From: a virus
Length of the DNA: 30,123 nt
IMG/VR virus record: IMGVR_UViG_3300017963_000605
Coordinates: 1-30,123 of that record
Direction: 5' to 3' (one strand)
The translations under genes were made by a program, and so were the position numbers. Below the pieces are notes generated by a model. It was not told the origin of the DNA, searched no databases, and saw only the letters and a program-made list of their open reading frames with translations. Below, in pieces: positions 22,901 through 30,046 of the stretch. Each line of letters begins with the position of its first letter. Position 1 is the first letter of the stretch.

Positions 22901-23760
22901 CGTAGGGTAAATCTGCGAATCTCATTTACATCTAGCCCCGCCTGAACCCCAGGAGCTAAACCAACCTGGAAGGTCTCTAACAGTTCCTCGAAGGTTGCTG
23001 TAGTCGTTAGAGCATCTTTACGGAGGAGTTGAACCTGTTTACGCGCTTCTGCTTGTGCGAGGATGAACCGTTCGGAGATATCTACAGTCTCTCCCATCTC
23101 CCCTCGCAAATCTCCTACGGCAAGGAGCAAAGACGCAACTCCAAGATTAGCTTGCTCTAAGCGCCTATTGAAGTCTAGGGAGGAGCGTACTAGGTCTTTA
23201 AAGCCTTGAATGGCTACTCTAGCAGCAGCAAAGGCGGCTAGAATTCCAAACAATCGCCTGAAAGTAAAGGAGATTCGATTTGCGTTCTCTCCAGACTTTT
23301 TCAATTCGGCATTGGTAAAGTTAAGGAAGCGCCTAAAGATTCCTATCTTTTTGGATCCATCGGCTACCGTTTTTCCAAATTTTTGTATGGATTGCGTTTG
23401 CTTTCTTCTTAACCCAAGATTTTGTTTTGTGGTTCTTTGAGAATCTTTTAATATCTCTGCTTCTTTTTTTAAGTTTTTGGCTGTTTCTTTTGAAGCTAAT
23501 GCTCTTTCCTTTTCTTCTTTAGCAAGGGACTTAGCCGCCGCTTTTAACAATTCTGCGGCGGATTGTGCCCGTTTAAAAGAACTAGCAACTTGGTCATTGG
23601 AAGCAGAAACAGAAGAGGCGGTTTGTCTATAATTGTCAGCTTGTTGTTTCAGTTGACGGAAAGCTTCTTCCATATCCTGAGCGGCGGCTTTTGACCGTTT
23701 CAGATGCTCTGGGACATTTCCGGTTATGTTAAAGGGTATGGTAAAACCTTCGTCAACCAT
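19972..23760 (-). CDS. Tail tape measure protein
   Basis: The largest gene (1262 residues). Coiled coil at about 20-130 and again at about 590-1000, hydrophobic stretches between about 453 and 550 (GLTIVLGILQGIVEAG and others), and a Gly-rich C-terminal region with FNDGGFAGASGFNRGGF and WIHPKDTIPAWLAPGEGIIP. This mixture of long helices with a central membrane-like part and a GF-rich end ending in an 'APGEG.IP' motif is typical of tape measures. It sets tail length and may pass into the host envelope. It follows the chaperones with TAATG overlap. Confidence 0.95.
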   Translation of the reverse strand: MVDEGFTIPFNITGNVPEHLKRSKAAAQDMEEAFRQLKQQADNYRQTASSVSASNDQVASSFKRAQSAAELLKAAAKSLAKEEKERALASKETAKNLKKEAEILKDSQRTTKQNLGLRRKQTQSIQKFGKTVADGSKKIGIFRRFLNFTNAELKKSGENANRISFTFRRLFGILAAFAAARVAIQGFKDLVRSSLDFNRRLEQANLGVASLLLAVGDLRGEMGETVDISERFILAQAEARKQVQLLRKDALTTTATFEELLETFQVGLAPGVQAGLDVNEIRRFTLRISQAAAAIGLSQNQLAEEIRSILAGTIQARTTRIAVSLGITNADIRRMKEAGRLGEFLTEKFSAFEEASAKTAKSFSGLVARVRDAFRGVLGAAGKGLFDELKGELETVFGAFTEVKGDFITPNEKAVKSFKFIFDGLRVGLAQAKEMIATLSGGSTFETIAEFFGEALGTGLTIVLGILQGIVEAGNNIIGIFKNIFQLLTGITGKLPASELRDIVASAVEILFTFKALNLVFGNINSKVGLLKVGFTGAFFVAAQLSKIILQNTAETSEITLAQTTQLQTTLLKQRAELAILAAKVAATYVTPGAAPLRKKALKDISDAIERQKEEYGKQLALIETARDREQRRKFEAKEQDKRLKELNEELNKSPVLISSATDAFKETEKVITDAQKKLKAFQVTSGLETSLAGVGGEELQILIKARGEIHQSLQQTQKDIIGTRQTISNLIKRGSEYQEKVINLSAKERAELNQVLAIHQERIKAQKETKAVEDEILLLTKEISAAEDKGDKAEADRLRNKVASAKTAKEQLQTELQAIAVGLRFVDPKTANLAQQLLPIVGQLKGEREKLLAIQNAEKDVSKAILDLAKARAQVARDRRIEENRIATQELAIQVTNQQRLNKAYSEGASVSQLDLVTAKNRADEIRHEISLINERFDREIRAQEIALAHATSLEESEQILEGINALEAQRAAELGLQTELLKEQEAQAKRLEARISRGLIGGFEQAAEYFVTDFQSSFEAGVAIMQSSMEGFADFLSTAITDSLDPNGKGIRENFANFLRGIGNMIIQQLTRVALAKATIGLFPGLLGFNDGGFAGASGFNRGGFAHFGPHARGFASGGISKPSWIHPKDTIPAWLAPGEGIIPVNRVMQYGKTAISRIIDGSIDPMGLNALANVSSRSSRIASPTQPSFNQGGFTSSAMSANQAEQRTGQQTSSSRTFVQPAIVANEDTMDTLLFGGKGALLRRFKDWGPEIKSALGVT

Positions 23761-24020
23761 TAGATACCTCTCCCAAATTTACCAAGGAAGTCATCAGAAG
23801 TTTTCATCCCAGTAGGCTGCTCTTTTTTAAACATCCCTTTTAGCCATTTCCCTAAATCCTTTCCAGAGGCTTGCGAAGTATGCCAATTGGTCCAGGATTG
23901 GTTAATGGTTTTAGCTTCGTCTAGGCGTTCTATAGATCCAACCAAACTGTTAAAACTCCGTAAATCCATGCTCATAATCAAATCTAAGCTAATATTCTCG
24001 GTCATTAGGGAGACTATCAT
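23760..24020 (-). CDS. Tail assembly chaperone, downstream frame (T-like)
   Basis: An 86-residue frame counting from the first ATG, but it has no ribosome site of its own, and the frame is open upstream through the end of the preceding gene as far as about 24173. That is how the second frame of a tail chaperone pair is normally expressed: by -1 frameshifting into it. Read through, the linker would be Gly/Arg-rich and then DPWLTLQDMIVSLM. It includes a Lys/Trp helix WLKGMFKKEQ. It overlaps the tape measure start. The downstream position between chaperone and tape measure is the expected one. Confidence 0.75.
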   Translation of the reverse strand: MIVSLMTENISLDLIMSMDLRSFNSLVGSIERLDEAKTINQSWTNWHTSQASGKDLGKWLKGMFKKEQPTGMKTSDDFLGKFGRGI

Positions 24021-24043
24021 ATCTTGTAAAGTAAGCCAGGGGT

Positions 24044-24640
24044 CTAATTGTTTTGGGCTTTCTCCTTTACGTTTTTGGCGATTGTTTCCAGACCGCCCAT
24101 GATTTCTCCCTGCAACTGGACGATCCTTTCCGCCAAAGGGCCTAGGGCTTTCATATTTGCTTTAACAATTCCTATCACCATATCTTTCAGGGCGGGAAGG
24201 GGAGTTACTTGTACGAATTCTAGAATCTCGCCCTTTTTCATATCAGCGGGGAACTTATCCCTTAGAGAGTGAACCAACAAATCGCCAAGAATGGTGAAGT
24301 TACTCTCATCTAGAAGAATGGTTATAATATTATGAATCGCCGATTTTCTCTCTTTGTCTTTGTGTTCCAGAATAGCGATAGACGCTTCTTGCTGTGTGTC
24401 ATTTTCAAAACTCCCTGTCTTTTTGTCCTCTTTGTAAGTAGAGGAGGATAGAGTCTCAGACACTTTATCTTGAAACATAATAGACGCGATTGCTTGAGCT
24501 AGAGAGGAGGCAGTCTCTTTAATCTCTTTTAATTTGCCTAAAGTGATAGGATAGAAGGTCAGTTCTTCGCCTTCTACCTCGTGCTTAACCCCTTTAGGAG
24601 AGAAGATAAAACTAAATGATTCTTTAAGTTCGGGTCTCAT
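24044..24640 (-). CDS. Tail assembly chaperone, upstream frame (G-like)
   Basis: A 198-residue soluble protein with AAGGACCAG before the ATG. It lies between the tail tube gene and the tape measure, the universal slot for the G/GT-type chaperones that bind the tape measure and recruit tube subunits. The middle has a helical acidic segment; the end carries a GEIMGGLETIAKNVKEKAQ helix. No sequence family is recognised directly, so the call rests on gene order and the frameshift site. Confidence 0.75.
   Translation of the reverse strand: MRPELKESFSFIFSPKGVKHEVEGEELTFYPITLGKLKEIKETASSLAQAIASIMFQDKVSETLSSSTYKEDKKTGSFENDTQQEASIAILEHKDKERKSAIHNIITILLDESNFTILGDLLVHSLRDKFPADMKKGEILEFVQVTPLPALKDMVIGIVKANMKALGPLAERIVQLQGEIMGGLETIAKNVKEKAQNN
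24134..24140 (-). other. Candidate -1 frameshift site CCCTTTG
   Basis: On the minus strand the codons read GGC CCT TTG, giving C-CCT-TTG, an X-XXY-YYZ heptamer in the correct phase near the end of the chaperone gene. It is the only such heptamer I find in the last ~60 codons where the -1 frame is open. A slip here makes a G-T fusion of about 300 residues. Confidence 0.55.
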
Positions 24641-24699: not shown

Positions 24700-25578
24700 T
24701 TATTGCTGAACCCCATCTTCGTAAGTAATTACGGTAAGAGTAGGACTATTAGCATCAATAGCAGAATTCTCTTCAGCGGCTCCTGAGAGTTGCATTCCTG
24801 CCCACTCATCGCCAAGCAGAGGAATATCTCCCTCAGCCTTGAGAGTCACCTTATGAAAATTCCACTCCTGGAGATGTCCAGAATTGGCAGCATTGTAAGA
24901 GATAAACTTCAATGCGCCAACAGCCCCGGAGTTTTTCAGGGCTCGAACAGCATCTACATTAGCAGGAGCAGAGGCATTAGCCGCTACTGTAACTTCATAA
25001 GTACCGGAGTCCATATTTCCGCCGTTAATGACGAAAATTCGGCCCATAGCTCTGTCTACAGTAAAGTCTGTTCCTTCCACCATAGTAGAACCGCCAGCTT
25101 GCTCTTCGATAGTCACAGCACCGATATCATAGAGCCTATCAGCCATAATATCAGAAGAGGGCATACCTGTAGTAGTCCCGAAGAGATCATACCACCTACC
25201 TTGAGTAGTGATGGTCAAATTCCCTGCGGAATCTGGAGATACTCCTGCAACAGCATCAGCATTGGATTGAGTTGTAGCATCTCCTGCGAAGAAGAGGCTC
25301 ATATTCTCAAAGTTAAATTCTTCAAGAGTCAGATTTGTAATAGCGACTTTCTGAGAGATAGTCACTTCCTTATCGAGAGTCTTCGTTCCCTCCGTAGTAT
25401 CGTAGTGTTCGAGTTTCTCCGTTTCTACGTTGATAACGAATTCAGCAGCATTTCCCAAAAATCGCCACCCCGCCGTATCGGGGAGATCACCTGTGGTGAG
25501 GCTGGTAAAGTATACCTTCCCTCTTCCCAACAGATAATCGTCAGCGTCTTTGGTTCCTGCAAGATTTCGGCCAGCCAT
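24700..25578 (-). CDS. Major tail tube protein
   Basis: A 292-residue protein behind AAGGAGGAAAAG. The opening RGKVYFTSLTTGD and GWRFLGNAAEFVI, then ETEKLEHYDTTEG and KTLDKEVT, follow the pattern of tail tube subunits (short N-terminal strand, then 'E.L...S/T.G.K...' loops). About 210 residues of beta domain are joined by an Ig-like insertion around 150-215 (VTIEEQAGGSTMVEGTDFTV). It would polymerise as rings around the tape measure. The strongest ribosome site among the tail genes agrees with high expression. Confidence 0.85.
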   Translation of the reverse strand: MAGRNLAGTKDADDYLLGRGKVYFTSLTTGDLPDTAGWRFLGNAAEFVINVETEKLEHYDTTEGTKTLDKEVTISQKVAITNLTLEEFNFENMSLFFAGDATTQSNADAVAGVSPDSAGNLTITTQGRWYDLFGTTTGMPSSDIMADRLYDIGAVTIEEQAGGSTMVEGTDFTVDRAMGRIFVINGGNMDSGTYEVTVAANASAPANVDAVRALKNSGAVGALKFISYNAANSGHLQEWNFHKVTLKAEGDIPLLGDEWAGMQLSGAAEENSAIDANSPTLTVITYEDGVQQ

Positions 25579-25609: not shown

Positions 25610-26053
25610 TTATTTTCGGATTGTGGCCTCAAAAGTATATACTATTGAAGTACCTGAAGAAGGTTGTTTCTTTGTTGGATGTTTATATTGTGCGTTAGTT
25701 ATATCTACCCACACTAAGAGTAGGTTGTTGTTATTTACATCACTTGGAAGTACGATAGGTTCATCGGTTAAGGCTTTTTCGAAGATATCCGCTACGACTT
25801 CTCCATCAAAAGCAACTCGCACATCCCAAATCCATTTTCCTCTATCCGCTATCCAGGACGTTTTATCTCTAGAATTTTGAGCAGGAATAAAGTTACTGGA
25901 CACATCATTTAATACGCAAGTCTTAGGTTCTACGGTGTCTTCTCCCAAGTCAGCCATCGAACCATCTGCTTCGTATTCTACTGGAACCCAAGGCCCCGCC
26001 TTTATTTTTTCCAGAATCGCATTATGGATTCTTTGTTTATTGGAGTAATACAT
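25610..26053 (-). CDS. Possible nested in-frame product: tail terminator-like, 147 aa
   Basis: Within the 722-residue frame an ATG at 26053 is preceded by a perfect GGAGG (26059-26063) at five-base spacing. The resulting protein starts MYYSNKQRIHNAILEKIKAG, then has alternating strands such as KWIWDVRVAFDGEV and TSIVYTFEATIRK. Its length, its fold pattern and its position directly before the tail tube are those of tail terminators. It may be made separately as well as in the fusion. Not shown experimentally. Confidence 0.45.
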   Translation of the reverse strand: MYYSNKQRIHNAILEKIKAGPWVPVEYEADGSMADLGEDTVEPKTCVLNDVSSNFIPAQNSRDKTSWIADRGKWIWDVRVAFDGEVVADIFEKALTDEPIVLPSDVNNNNLLLVWVDITNAQYKHPTKKQPSSGTSIVYTFEATIRK

Positions 26054-27778
26054 ATCATCCTCCGTAGTAATTCTCGAAGGCCGAGTGAACCACCTAAACA
26101 CCGCTTTCCCTGCGGAGATTATAACGTCAATCGCCGCAGACAAAACAGAATCATTCGTTGCTTGAAAGTTTAAATCAGCTTTTCCAGAAGTCACAGTAGA
26201 AGAAGAGGAGGCTGTTCCTCCAACCCCCACCCAACTCATAATTGCCGCAGTAGCATTCATAATCACAGCCAAAACCGTGACTAAAATGGAGTCTTCGGTT
26301 GCTACGAAGTTTAAATCCGCTTGGGTGCTTGTCAACGTATCGTCAACCAAGAGGTCAGGATCATCTACAACTAGATTTAAGTCTGCTTTATTGGCGGTAA
26401 TTGAATCGTCGCTTCCTAGAAGTCCATCTTTTCCTAGGAAATTTAAGTCGGCGTTTTCTGAGGTTAAGGTTGCGTCTTCTCCCAAGTCTGCTTCTTTAGT
26501 AGCAAAATCCAATTCAGCCCAAAGACTAGCAATAGTGTCGTCGCTAAACAGTTCCCCGTCTTTTCCTGCAAAATTTAAATCAGCTTTATCTGAGGTTAAT
26601 GTAGACTCTTCTGCCAAAGACCCATCTTGCCCTAGGTAATCGATTTGAGAATACCCTGCGGAAATTAAAGCTTCTTCCAGTAAATCAGCTTCCTTACTAG
26701 CAAAATTCATTTCCGCTTCATTTCCAGTTAAAGTACTCTCTTCTGATAGCGTTCCATCTTTACCAGAGAAGTTAAGTTCTGATTTATCAGAGGTTAAAGT
26801 ATCTGCTGCGGAGATTAGCGCGTTATTCCCCGCAAAACTCATTTCCGCTTCATTTCCAGTTAATACGGAATCTTCTACTAATACTCCATCTTTCCCCACA
26901 AAGTCTAAATCCGCTTTGGAAGCTGTTAGTTTATTGGCTTTTTGTCCATGAACAGGAACTAAATAAAATTTCCGTCTTCGTATTGTCCCCCAAGGGTCAT
27001 CATATATCTGTAAAATCTGAGCTTGGGATAATTGGTTATCATAACAAGCGAAATAGCTGATATTACAAAGGTCATGCAAGGAGGTTGCCCAAGAAGCGCC
27101 TACACCCCCTTGGCCTAGGTAAAAAGAAGAGGGGGTTCCAGCTAAGACCCCTAAAGTAGCACTATTTCCGTGGGAGGCTTCTAATTTCCCGTTTCTCCAA
27201 ATCTCCATACCTCTAGGACCTACAGAACAAACCCAAAGGTCTTCTTCCGCTTGTGTAATATTAGGGCTTGGGTTATACCAAACCATAGAAGTCCCAGGAG
27301 TAGCTCCCCCAAATCCGAAATACACGTTTCCATCGGAGTGAGGAGCCCGGAAATAAACACCGTAAGCGGCCCAGGGAGTAGGGACTACATTGCCAAACAT
27401 CCCTACGTTTCTGGCAGTAGAATCTGTTTTGTGAATGTGGATTACAAAGGTAGCCTGAGTTCGGTCTTTGATAACGTCTCGTACTCTGCCTAAATAAACC
27501 CGTTTCTGGCTAGGAGTCCCGGAAAAAGGCCAAAGTTTTATGGCAGGACCAATTAAATCGCAGCACCATTCCGCCCCATTTACTAAAGATACAGTCGTAA
27601 TGGAGTTCCCGTTAATCCCTCCCCCTCCAGTATAAGAAGCACAAGGAGCAATATTAGGAATCGTAGTTTGATGTCCTATCATATCCTGGGTAAAAGGCAA
27701 ACAAAATCTACAACTACTAGCTCCAGGAGCATCCCCCCGGAAAATCGCATTTGTAGGTTTTGTTCGGTAAAAGCCCAT
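25610..27778 (-). CDS. LamG-like domain plus 22-aa repeats protein, 722 aa
   Basis: Residues up to about 280 form a jelly-roll LamG/concanavalin-like domain (MEIWRNGKLEASHGNSAT, then LSQAQILQIYDDPWG, the usual helix closing such domains). Then follow about eleven 22-residue repeats (LTSDKADLNFAGKDGELFSD type) to about residue 540. The last 147 residues (from 576) form a different compact domain. The gene lies just upstream of the tail tube, where a tail terminator or connector is usually found. The start overlaps the previous stop. Probably a virion surface protein; the C-terminal domain may be separate. Confidence 0.7.
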   Translation of the reverse strand: MGFYRTKPTNAIFRGDAPGASSCRFCLPFTQDMIGHQTTIPNIAPCASYTGGGGINGNSITTVSLVNGAEWCCDLIGPAIKLWPFSGTPSQKRVYLGRVRDVIKDRTQATFVIHIHKTDSTARNVGMFGNVVPTPWAAYGVYFRAPHSDGNVYFGFGGATPGTSMVWYNPSPNITQAEEDLWVCSVGPRGMEIWRNGKLEASHGNSATLGVLAGTPSSFYLGQGGVGASWATSLHDLCNISYFACYDNQLSQAQILQIYDDPWGTIRRRKFYLVPVHGQKANKLTASKADLDFVGKDGVLVEDSVLTGNEAEMSFAGNNALISAADTLTSDKSELNFSGKDGTLSEESTLTGNEAEMNFASKEADLLEEALISAGYSQIDYLGQDGSLAEESTLTSDKADLNFAGKDGELFSDDTIASLWAELDFATKEADLGEDATLTSENADLNFLGKDGLLGSDDSITANKADLNLVVDDPDLLVDDTLTSTQADLNFVATEDSILVTVLAVIMNATAAIMSWVGVGGTASSSSTVTSGKADLNFQATNDSVLSAAIDVIISAGKAVFRWFTRPSRITTEDDMYYSNKQRIHNAILEKIKAGPWVPVEYEADGSMADLGEDTVEPKTCVLNDVSSNFIPAQNSRDKTSWIADRGKWIWDVRVAFDGEVVADIFEKALTDEPIVLPSDVNNNNLLLVWVDITNAQYKHPTKKQPSSGTSIVYTFEATIRK
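25930..26920 (-). repeat. 66-bp coding repeats (22-aa units)
   Basis: About eleven 22-residue units encoded in the 722-residue gene, nine of them contiguous. Common elements are L-T-S/G, then A/E-D/E-L/M-N/D-F, then K/E-D-G/A. The last two units are separated and worn. The boundaries given are approximate. Confidence 0.75.
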
Positions 27779-28254
27779 TAAGGATCACTCTGTTCAGGTA
27801 CGTAGTAGTTGTAATACGTATCGTGATTCGCTTCCGTAGAATGAATCGATTGCCCAGAAGAATTCACAATCGCGATACCCCAAGTCGGACCAAGAGGACC
27901 AAGAGGGGCAGTATCAAATACCTTAGCAAAATCTGTAGAGGCGTTTGCCGTTACGATAATACTTCCCAAAAGGGGGGCATTAACGTGGGTATAGGAGGCA
28001 TCAGACCCGCCCCATCCATCATCGGCTACTGTTCCAGTATCTCTAAGTAAGTATATAAAATAACCATACCCTGCTGTAGGCGCAACCAGCCCAGACATGA
28101 TGTTGATACTTACTAAAGCGGCTGGATAGTCGTTGGAATTGGATACAGAAGCGGAACTTCTCCCACTACCATTTGCAAGTCCTACCCCAGAAGGAGCCAT
28201 AGTAATAGTAAATGACGCTTCCGCAATATCTTTTGTAATTATTTCGTTAGCCAT
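27778..28254 (-). CDS. Hypothetical structural protein, 158 aa
   Basis: The start overlaps the preceding stop and its end overlaps the next start, so it is fully embedded in the operon. The sequence is rich in Ser, Ala, Gly, Asn and Tyr with beta patterns (NDYPAALVSINIMSG, then YGYFIYLLRD). It looks like a beta-sandwich decoration or adaptor protein. No known family. Position between connectors and the lectin-like protein supports a virion role. Confidence 0.6.
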   Translation of the reverse strand: MANEIITKDIAEASFTITMAPSGVGLANGSGRSSASVSNSNDYPAALVSINIMSGLVAPTAGYGYFIYLLRDTGTVADDGWGGSDASYTHVNAPLLGSIIVTANASTDFAKVFDTAPLGPLGPTWGIAIVNSSGQSIHSTEANHDTYYNYYVPEQSDP

Positions 28255-28565
28255 TAGAGTAGATTCGGATTAAAGATTCTGGCTAAATGTTCAAATTTGG
28301 CATTAATTACAGTCTCGATTTCTTGGTCTGTGGAGTCTTGGGTTACCCCCTCTTCAATTAACGCCCTAGTAAAGAATTTAGCATTGGGTGTCTGAGTATT
28401 TAAAACTTCCCTGGCAAGTTGAGCCATCAATTTATAATATTGGTCTGAAACAGGGAGCACAAAAAGGGTAGCTACGATTTTATTAATCATAGCTGTGAGC
28501 CCCCTAGCAGTTAGCTCAGTACCCTCAGCATTTTCCGCTTCTTGGTATTGGTCTATTAATCCCAT
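28254..28565 (-). CDS. Small helical hypothetical protein, 103 aa
   Basis: The ATG at 28565 overlaps the previous stop (TAATG); an in-frame TTG at 28583 would extend it by six residues without a ribosome site. Helical throughout (MGLIDQYQEAENAEGTELTA start, EEGVTQDSTDQEIETVINAK later). The layout of a short helical protein in the connector region resembles small head-tail joining or assembly-chaperone proteins, but no motif fixes this. Confidence 0.6.
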   Translation of the reverse strand: MGLIDQYQEAENAEGTELTARGLTAMINKIVATLFVLPVSDQYYKLMAQLAREVLNTQTPNAKFFTRALIEEGVTQDSTDQEIETVINAKFEHLARIFNPNLL

Positions 28566-29011
28566 TACGTAGTATTCCCCCAAATCCAGCCGTCTGCTCC
28601 GAATTCGATTGAAAAGTCTCCACCTTGAGTAACGAAGTCGAAATCCGGAGTCCCCGTCACCGTATCAATCCAGGCTACTAGCTCAGAGGTAGCATCCGCT
28701 CCAGAGTTTCGGTAAATAACGAAACCCCCAAGCGTGTTATCCACCGCTCCTCCTAGAGAGGTCCAGGTTGTAGGATTATCGGAATCGATTTCGATTCTAT
28801 CGTTAGCATCATCTACAGAGATTGCGGGATTTGCAATTGCTTTTCTGACATAGTTGGTAGCATCACACTCATCAGCAGAAATATCGTCTACATAATCGTG
28901 GTCTCTATCCGGGGAGTATGAGTTTTTCATTAGCATAACTCCCCAAGTGACGGACTCTACATCATATTTAGCAATTACATAGGCTCCTCTGTTATAGACA
29001 AAGTTAGCCAT
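28565..29011 (-). CDS. Conserved beta-rich phage structural protein, 148 aa
   Basis: The opening MANFVYNRGAYVIAK, then GVMLMKNSYSPDRDHDYVDD and a Y-R-K-A segment, matches a pattern I recall from a common family of small virion proteins in diverse phages (Y..G...I..G.I.W....K..L....Y....DHDFV.DI...E). The function is usually unassigned; a decoration or fibre role is suggested. Directly after the connector-like gene, with which it is adjacent. Confidence 0.7.
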   Translation of the reverse strand: MANFVYNRGAYVIAKYDVESVTWGVMLMKNSYSPDRDHDYVDDISADECDATNYVRKAIANPAISVDDANDRIEIDSDNPTTWTSLGGAVDNTLGGFVIYRNSGADATSELVAWIDTVTGTPDFDFVTQGGDFSIEFGADGWIWGNTT

Positions 29012-29551
29012 CTATTCCTCCTCGTCATCGTAACTATCAGGAAAAGCACTCTCGCCTATCTTAGGAGGAGCGTCTTCTGGTTCAAATGTAGTAATACTCC
29101 AGGTTGTTTCTGCCCCCGCCGTTTCTTCTCCCTCTAGGAATTGAAAGTTTTGCTCTATTTCAAAGTGGAGCATATCTCGTAAAGAGCCCAAAGAGAATTG
29201 GTCCTCTCCTCGAAACACGCCCTCTTCGTTCCATAGCTGTTGAGCCTCTCCGGAAGCGTCTTGGAAGAGCATAGGCAGGGTCCAGGTTAATTCCTGCTTT
29301 ACAATCATGATTTCCGTTTGCCTGGCAATCTCTCGTAGGTTTTCGTTTGTAGTGGATGGGGTATCTGATGGAGTGATAGCAATTAAAGTATCCATCCTGG
29401 ATTGCCCCAGTCTACGATAGAATTGGCTTCTCGCTTTTCGTATTGCTTGTTCCAAAAGAGTAGCTGAGTCTTTAGCAGAATCCATTCCAGAGAGTCTTAG
29501 GTTCTCTTTTAGGACCGCTGTAGATTCTACAAAAGCTGGAGAGATTGCCAT
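29012..29551 (-). CDS. Putative head-tail connector/adaptor protein, 179 aa
   Basis: A mostly helical protein beginning MAISPAFVESTAVLKENLRL. Helices such as LLEQAIRKARSQFYRRLG and NLREIARQTEIMIVKQELTW, with an acidic C-terminal tail, match the pattern of small gp6-like head-tail adaptors that sit beneath the portal. Its location upstream of the tail genes on the minus strand agrees. The assignment is based on helical layout and order. Confidence 0.55.
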   Translation of the reverse strand: MAISPAFVESTAVLKENLRLSGMDSAKDSATLLEQAIRKARSQFYRRLGQSRMDTLIAITPSDTPSTTNENLREIARQTEIMIVKQELTWTLPMLFQDASGEAQQLWNEEGVFRGEDQFSLGSLRDMLHFEIEQNFQFLEGEETAGAETTWSITTFEPEDAPPKIGESAFPDSYDDEEE

Positions 29552-29554
29552 AGT

Positions 29555-30046
29555 TTACCCCTGAAAATCTTGAGTCAGAAAGTCAATTGCTTCTTCTTTT
29601 TCTTCGAAAGATGGAGCGTCTTCCGGATTGTCGTATTTTTCCTGGACCATAATATTAAGTTGTTCTACAGATTTATCTCCCAAAAGCCTGGGGTCTGCAT
29701 TCCATTTCCTTACAGGTCTTGGGTATGAGTCTTTAAAAGGCTGTTTTCGTTCAACACCCTTCCCAGTCTTTTTCTCATTTACGTTTTTAGGCTCTAGGAA
29801 ACTGCCTTCGCTATTTTTAACGAGGATTTCGTTTTTAAGAATCGGACCATCCTCATCATACTTTTCTATTGTAGGAGGGGAGGTCGCTTTTATCACGAAT
29901 CCTTTTTCTATAGCGTCTTCCAAGAGCTTTTTGTCTACTTTCGCCAAACGTTTTGGGTCTAGTTCTTTTCCTTTAACAAAATAAACTCCACCAATGGTGA
30001 AGTTCTCTCTGGGATTCCCGTATAGTTTCATTTCTTTTTCAGTCAT
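29555..30046 (-). CDS. Hypothetical protein, 163 aa, connector region
   Basis: GAAAGGACCAG precedes the ATG. A highly charged Lys/Glu/Asp-rich protein: MTEKEMKLYGNPRENFTIGG, then a GKELDPKRLAKVDKKL helix, a long low-complexity middle and an acidic end EDAPSFEEKEEAIDFLTQDF. It may be a head-decoration, scaffold-like or adaptor protein, but no motif is recognised. Only three bases separate it from the next gene. Confidence 0.6.
   Translation of the reverse strand: MTEKEMKLYGNPRENFTIGGVYFVKGKELDPKRLAKVDKKLLEDAIEKGFVIKATSPPTIEKYDEDGPILKNEILVKNSEGSFLEPKNVNEKKTGKGVERKQPFKDSYPRPVRKWNADPRLLGDKSVEQLNIMVQEKYDNPEDAPSFEEKEEAIDFLTQDFQG

Follow-up and report, generated by a model that had tools for sequence, protein, structure and literature searches.

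A fibre-like protein fused to a candidate tail terminator in an uncultured bacterial virus, with a putative internal start where the two meet

A gene of 722 codons in a virus of bacteria ends in a compact domain of 147 residues that is preceded by a putative ribosome site of its own, which raises the question of whether the gene gives one product or two, and of what has been joined to what. The source is an uncultured virus whose record holds 30,123 bases, and this whole stretch, which was analysed at its full length, is called the window below. A first-pass annotation made from the letters had placed the domain where a tail terminator would be expected and had offered two readings: a gene giving both a fused and a free form, or a fusion of two formerly separate genes.

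Gene order, relatives and fold of the probable terminator domain

Transcription on the minus strand runs through genes of 163, 179, 148, about 105, 158, and 722 aa, then the tail tube gene, two small genes, the tape measure protein gene (phrog_24, E 1.6e-8), and others. The features used here, in this order, are:

29555..30046, minus strand: 163-aa gene upstream of the connector; order preserved in relatives
29012..29551, minus strand: 179-aa head-tail connector gene; 29-41% identity to 8 relatives, and neighbour relation
28565..29011, minus strand: 148-aa cassette gene; phrog_644, E 1.7e-12; begins where the connector gene ends, and has a GGAGG of its own
28254..28583, minus strand: small cassette gene, 109 aa from a TTG or ~103 aa from an ATG at 28565; no convincing match
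27778..28254, minus strand: 158-aa cassette gene, its stop overlapping the start codon of the next gene (722 aa); searches of the loci gave no relatives
25610..27778, minus strand: 722-aa gene (fibre-like N-terminal part, repeats, and tail terminator domain); open frame with ATG start, codon use up to the joint
26954..27778, minus strand: residues 1-275, N-terminal domain; no relatives found
26276..26935, minus strand: residues 282-501, ten 22-residue repeats, probable stalk; period 22/44/66
26054..26275, minus strand: residues 502-575, linker from the repeats to the terminator domain; from sequence, its end not significantly repeat-like
26059..26063, minus strand: GGAGG, putative Shine-Dalgarno site for the internal start; sequence motif and anti-Shine-Dalgarno energy
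26051..26053, minus strand: internal in-frame ATG (Met576); in the alignment, at the position of the initial Met of free relatives
25610..26053, minus strand: tail terminator domain, 147 aa plus stop; profile of free relatives, E 2.5e-32, and fold
24700..25578, minus strand: major tail tube protein gene, adjoining the 722-aa gene downstream; phrog_807, E 1.8e-39; NCBIfam tail tube, 2.5e-39

Between the tube gene and the tape measure gene, the 198-aa and 86-aa genes (23760-24640, minus strand) look like a chaperone pair made via a frameshift. The frame of the 86-aa gene is open across the end of the 198-aa gene and has only a weak start codon of its own (-1.5), and a run of GCCCAAAAC lies ahead of the first stop in the pair.

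Direct searches of PDB sequences, phage records, and both viral and genome contigs with the 147 residues or with the whole 722 residues found no match, and relatives were therefore reached via the tube protein, for which a first scan using the window protein alone had given none. At all 13 of the closest loci (L016-L028), a separate gene of the terminator-domain family sits between the relative of the 179-aa connector gene and the tube gene. This free gene has 138-144 codons in 11 of the 13; those of L018 and L026 are longer when read from the first start codon, and a start at the family position is also present. The free proteins share 24-36% identity with the last 147 residues of the window protein. 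A profile built from 8 free relatives, with the window excluded, matched residues 579-720 (E 2.5e-32) and had no match among the remaining 184 window ORFs of at least 50 residues. The first-pass annotation had proposed looking for relatives with a separate gene; these were found, and the start Met of the free genes aligns with Met576.

The phrog_807 match identifies the tube protein as a Chi-like (Casjensviridae) tail tube protein, and the window domain directly precedes its gene, the cassette separating the domain from the connector. This is the place of a tail terminator. An annotated terminator stands at the corresponding place in six of nine Chi-like regions (those of the Chi, DSS3-P1, Loktanella, Clavibacter, JS26, and FoX4 phages), the gene at that place in Cr-LKS3 is annotated as a putative tail tube terminator, and those of the remaining two regions are hypothetical. 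By profile, none of nine family members scanned matched any PHROG family below E 0.05. The terminator domain itself had no PHROG or Pfam match, nor did the family profile match a profile of seven Chi-like terminators; a match of this kind is common for terminators but does not define them. Terminators are reported to have a common fold without sequence likeness (PMC11784142).

We then compared a fold model, built from an alignment of 21 family members, with solved structures. The model had a mean pLDDT of 92.5 and the order helix, strands, helix, strands, as against a pLDDT of 31.7 for the 147 residues modelled without an alignment. Among the 50 structural matches listed, 30 were by title tail, neck, connector, cap, or collar chains of phages or tailocins, including the P74-26 neck (Z 8.6), T4 gp15 (7.0), T5 p142 (6.9), lambda gpU (6.2), and 8vhx_C, the Chi tail terminator (5.9); 2GJV and 4ACV, both among the 50, are terminator crystals named in PMC11784142. 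The Z values are middling, only one of the 50 matches listed (the best, 8.6) lying above 8, and unrelated folds are interleaved: the other 18 of the 50 include PilO, collagenases, and S6 permutants. PilO is likewise among the matches shown in the T5 paper. Foldseek gave no PDB match below 1e-3, and in a viral model library the best matches included tail connector, tail sheath completion, and tube proteins. In this comparison, which the first-pass annotation had proposed, the predicted fold resembles that of solved terminators with moderate strength. Gene order, homology to the free genes, and fold support its placing of the 147-residue domain at the tail terminator position, and gene order and fold jointly make tail terminator the best name for these residues.

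Recurrence of the fusion and its fibre-like neighbours

The family searches gave 78 matches, which came to 44 distinct domains after 34 with an identical domain sequence had been dropped before counting. Four of the 44 are fused to a long upstream protein: those of the window (722 aa), L102 (746 aa), and L146 (915 aa), and that of L151, whose gene runs off the contig and has at least 449 aa. The other 40 were counted as free, with at most 106 residues ahead of the domain in the open frame. The L151 contig starts inside the fused gene, and no connector was found for it. That formerly separate genes were fused, one of the two readings first offered, is supported by the domain being free in relatives and by the like fusion in three other contigs.

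In a tree of the 44 domains, L146 and L151 form one supported clade beside eight free genes, with the window and L102 elsewhere. Supported branches force at least two changes between the fused and free states, and the best tree has three; tree support is thin, with 47 of 500 label shuffles as low, and losses could account for some of the changes. Outside the terminator domain, the window protein did not match the fused proteins of L102, L146, or L151. The N-terminal ends of L102 and L146 are weakly similar, and L146 and L151 have repeats in common, which match minor tail protein families. Repeats of 21-23 residues stand ahead of the terminator in all four fused proteins.

Codon use preferred the 722 frame in six of six 60-nt blocks preceding Met576, and both other frames have stops there. 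As codon use supports this frame up to Met576, a simple frame error in the 360 nt leading up to it does not explain the fusion, and a frameshift origin near the joint, which was tested against codon use and the stops in the other frames, was unsupported. Contig L002 carries a 904-aa gene identical to one of the window's, and its record held no match to the 722-aa protein; searches of viral contigs, phage records, and genome contigs found no second copy of the 722-aa gene.

The N-terminal domain of the 722-aa protein (residues 1-275), which may be a LamG-like jelly roll, had no match in Pfam, NCBIfam, PDB, phage, viral-contig, or genome-contig searches; we dismissed four phage matches of the N-terminal part, which had E values of 5 to 9. 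A further repeat unit in the 30 residues that precede Met576 was tested for and was unsupported (34 of 300 shuffles were equally good). As no relatives were detected for the fibre half, its role rests on its architecture and its neighbours.

Those neighbours belong to a cassette that fills about 3 kb from the connector to the terminator domain and ends with the 722-aa gene; in most relatives the connector directly precedes the terminator. The phrog_644 gene of the window has relatives in L112 and L012-L015, and its protein is related to proteins annotated as minor tail subunits in three phages. Next to the L146 fused gene lies another relative of this 148-aa gene (pairwise E 2e-8), which another search matched in one direction only. 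Relatives of phrog_644 (e.g., L014:7001-7417) occur in siphophages, phages with N4-like capsids, and Caulobacter phage phiCbK, where the gene after the relative is annotated as a putative lectin-like protein; phrog_644 is perhaps a general fibre-attachment protein.

Other viruses carry other genes in this slot. In L102, the gene immediately preceding the fusion is related to Gp80 of Pfam (PF23140, E 1.1e-39), to which a fibre role is ascribed by its Pfam title, podophage GP4 fibre I protein; a search of the literature on GP4 gp80 found no paper naming it. In both L112 and L173, 3-4 kb separates the connector from an unfused terminator. The L112 slot has tail-fibre and acetylesterase matches, with L112:5791-8010 encoding a 739-aa fibre-like protein that has an acetylesterase domain (SASA, E 2.4e-22). 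That of L173 (L173:3246-6525) has three frames (366, 614, and 109 aa as scanned) ahead of the free terminator, with no convincing Pfam or PHROG match. In the cyanobacterial Cylindrospermopsis phage Cr-LKS3 (L006:1726-5256), two annotated tail-fibre genes lie between the head-tail joining protein and the terminator. From these cases, the connector-terminator slot receives fibre-like genes in several viruses, and in some of these the last fibre-like gene of the slot is joined to the terminator.

Putative start sites at the joint

The sequence motif on which the first-pass annotation was built was confirmed within the 722-aa gene: GGAGG (26063-26059) lies 5 nt before the in-frame ATG (26053-26051). 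With an anti-Shine-Dalgarno energy of -9.5, it is the strongest of the 29 internal in-frame ATG, GTG, and TTG codons of the gene. The motif alone is not enriched, GGAGG-N3-9-ATG occurring 6 times in the window against 5.93 expected, and what is unusual about the site is its in-frame state and location rather than the motif itself. An energy as strong was found at 1 of 69 internal in-frame ATGs of 11 minus-strand genes and at 59 of 5161 codon positions. When the peptide before Met576 was held fixed, an equally strong site arose in 5.2% of synonymous draws with the codon use of the 11 genes and in 2.1% with that of the gene itself; because draws reach equal strength in 2-5%, the DNA of this single gene offers a hint rather than proof. 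The upstream start, which overlaps the stop codon of the 158-aa gene before it (TAATG), is weak (-3.0 vs -9.5 for the internal site), and predicted pairing around the internal site is a little above that of three gene starts (mean unpaired 0.40 vs 0.49-0.61). Like a gene for two polypeptides, the 722-aa gene has a putative internal start with a ribosome site that shares the frame and stop of the longer product and opens a candidate C-terminal oligomer domain.

The joints of the other fused genes were compared in the same terms. A GGAGG with an ATG or GTG stands at the joint in three of the four fused genes, and in each of these the joint start ranks first: an ATG in the window (-9.5, 1 of 29), a GTG in L146 (-9.5, 1 of 28), and an ATG in L151 (-11.0, 1 of 11 in the part present on the contig). 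The joint of L102 has a weaker GTG (-5.9, rank 2 of 23), and the best in-frame site of that gene is a GTG (-10.9) elsewhere. Synonymous-codon nulls were modest, at 0.021 for the window, 0.177 for L146, 0.291 for L151, and 0.079 for L102. The L146 joint reads GGA GGA in a G+C-rich gene in which GGA accounts for 10 of 92 Gly codons; the agreement of L146 with L151 is not independent, since both form one clade. The recurrence of a start at the joint favours its use, with L102 and the modest nulls weighing against certainty.

Readings of the locus and relation to known systems

We consider it fairly likely that the 722-aa gene encodes a neck fibre fused to a tail terminator, with the internal start yielding a free form and the ring mixing plain and fibre-bearing subunits. 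Domain homology, gene order, fold likeness, the recurring fusion, and the recurring start site at the joint are its computed support, and from these we infer the use of the internal start, the mixed ring, and host binding. Two products are suggested by the start sites at the joints of all four fused genes, which are strong except for the weak one of L102, and the two readings first offered, a two-product gene and a gene fusion, probably both apply, rather than one or the other. In the proposed mechanism, a neck-fibre protein made of the N-terminal domain and a stalk of 22-residue repeats would be fused to the tail terminator in the 722-aa gene, the weak upstream start giving the full fusion and the strong internal site at 26053 the free 147-residue terminator. 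Fusion and free terminator would enter one ring atop the tail tube, with free subunits filling the ring, which would cap the tail, bind the head, and bear neck fibres aiding host capture. The ratio of the two starts would then determine the number of fibres per particle.

We give distinctly less credence, about that of a one-in-several chance, to the view that only the fused protein is made, with a fibre on each terminator subunit and the GGAGG and ATG a relic of the separate gene or a product of chance. The L102 joint, which has no ATG and just a weak GTG site, agrees with it, as do the synonymous draws, which match the three strong sites in 2 to 29%, and the pairing around the window's site, which is not especially low; but in the window, L146, and L151 the top-ranked in-frame start falls precisely at the joint, and L146 has GGA GGA there despite the scarcity of GGA among its Gly codons. 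That the window gene is truly two genes, joined by a sequencing or assembly fault or by a recent loss of a stop codon, seems very improbable. The gene comes from one metagenome contig, no second copy of it was found, and an off-frame TGA lies just ahead of the ATG; against this, the 722 frame is preferred in every block before Met576, the other frames have stops, and similar fusions occur in three other contigs.

We likewise see little chance that the 147-residue domain is a neck or tail-completion protein instead of a terminator. The missing match to PHROG terminator profiles or to the seven Chi-like terminators could be read that way, and so could the middling Z, the PilO, collagenase, and S6 entries among the matches listed, and the Foldseek search without a PDB match below 1e-3. 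Yet terminator and neck entries dominate the matches listed, the domain immediately precedes the tube gene, as does the annotated terminator of the Chi, DSS3-P1, Loktanella, Clavibacter, JS26, and FoX4 phages, and a terminator fold shared without sequence likeness is what PMC11784142 reports.

We also compared the locus to known systems. The domain is like the siphophage terminators Chi gp21, T5 p142, and lambda gpU in its place before the tube protein, its helix-strands-helix-strands fold, and its structural match; unlike these free proteins of about 130-170 aa, it ends a 722-aa protein, and it has no sequence-profile link to them. T5 p142 is reported to be soluble and monomeric with an N-terminal tag and to form fibres with a C-terminal one (PMC11784142), behaviour that fits tolerance of an N-terminal fusion. 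An in-frame internal start also occurs in the endolysins LysP7951 and LysIME-EF1, where the separate C-terminal domain that it yields assembles with the full-length protein into one complex, at full-length to free ratios of 1:5 and 1:3, respectively (PMC9430671, PMC7098653). Those are lysis enzymes, whereas the two forms from the window are predicted to build a virion ring.

Neck passage structures of the 936 and TP901-1 phages are described as long neck proteins that carry stalks and, at their ends, domains for host binding, and the neck fibres of 936-type lactococcal phages as having carbohydrate-binding ends (PMC6669499). Their neck proteins, which in 936 phages have a BppU-like ring domain, come from separate genes and are proposed to form a collar of their own, whereas the window fibre would be a covalent part of the terminator ring; the window protein is not the product of a separate neck gene as in 936 phages, being fused to the terminator domain, and its N-terminal 275 residues match neither Pfam nor PDB. 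In the extended tail tube of 936 phages, a programmed frameshift places a host-binding extension, TpeX, on some copies of a ring protein (PMC6669499). That extension follows the ring domain, whereas the window's is N-terminal and its plain form would arise from an internal start. As for the podophage GP4 fibre Gp80 (PF23140), its relative adjoins the L102 fused gene upstream, and the window has phrog_644 there instead. A search of the literature on fibre-terminator fusions and on internal starts in phage structural genes found no description of the arrangement among the papers listed, which leaves its absence from the literature unproven. Whether these loci make up an undescribed class of neck appendage, in which different kinds of fibre have been fused on more than one occasion to the terminator with a ribosome start at the joint and the start ratio sets the fibre number, we judge to be about evenly balanced.

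The comparison brings out a terminator-like family of 44 distinct domains, of which none of the nine members scanned falls within PHROG below E 0.05. Tail terminators, neck fibres, and genes that give two products through an internal start are each known separately, and the proposed arrangement brings them together. If the reading holds, it would be a simple route to placing host-binding parts on the tail cap while the plain cap is retained, and translation could set the number of fibres.
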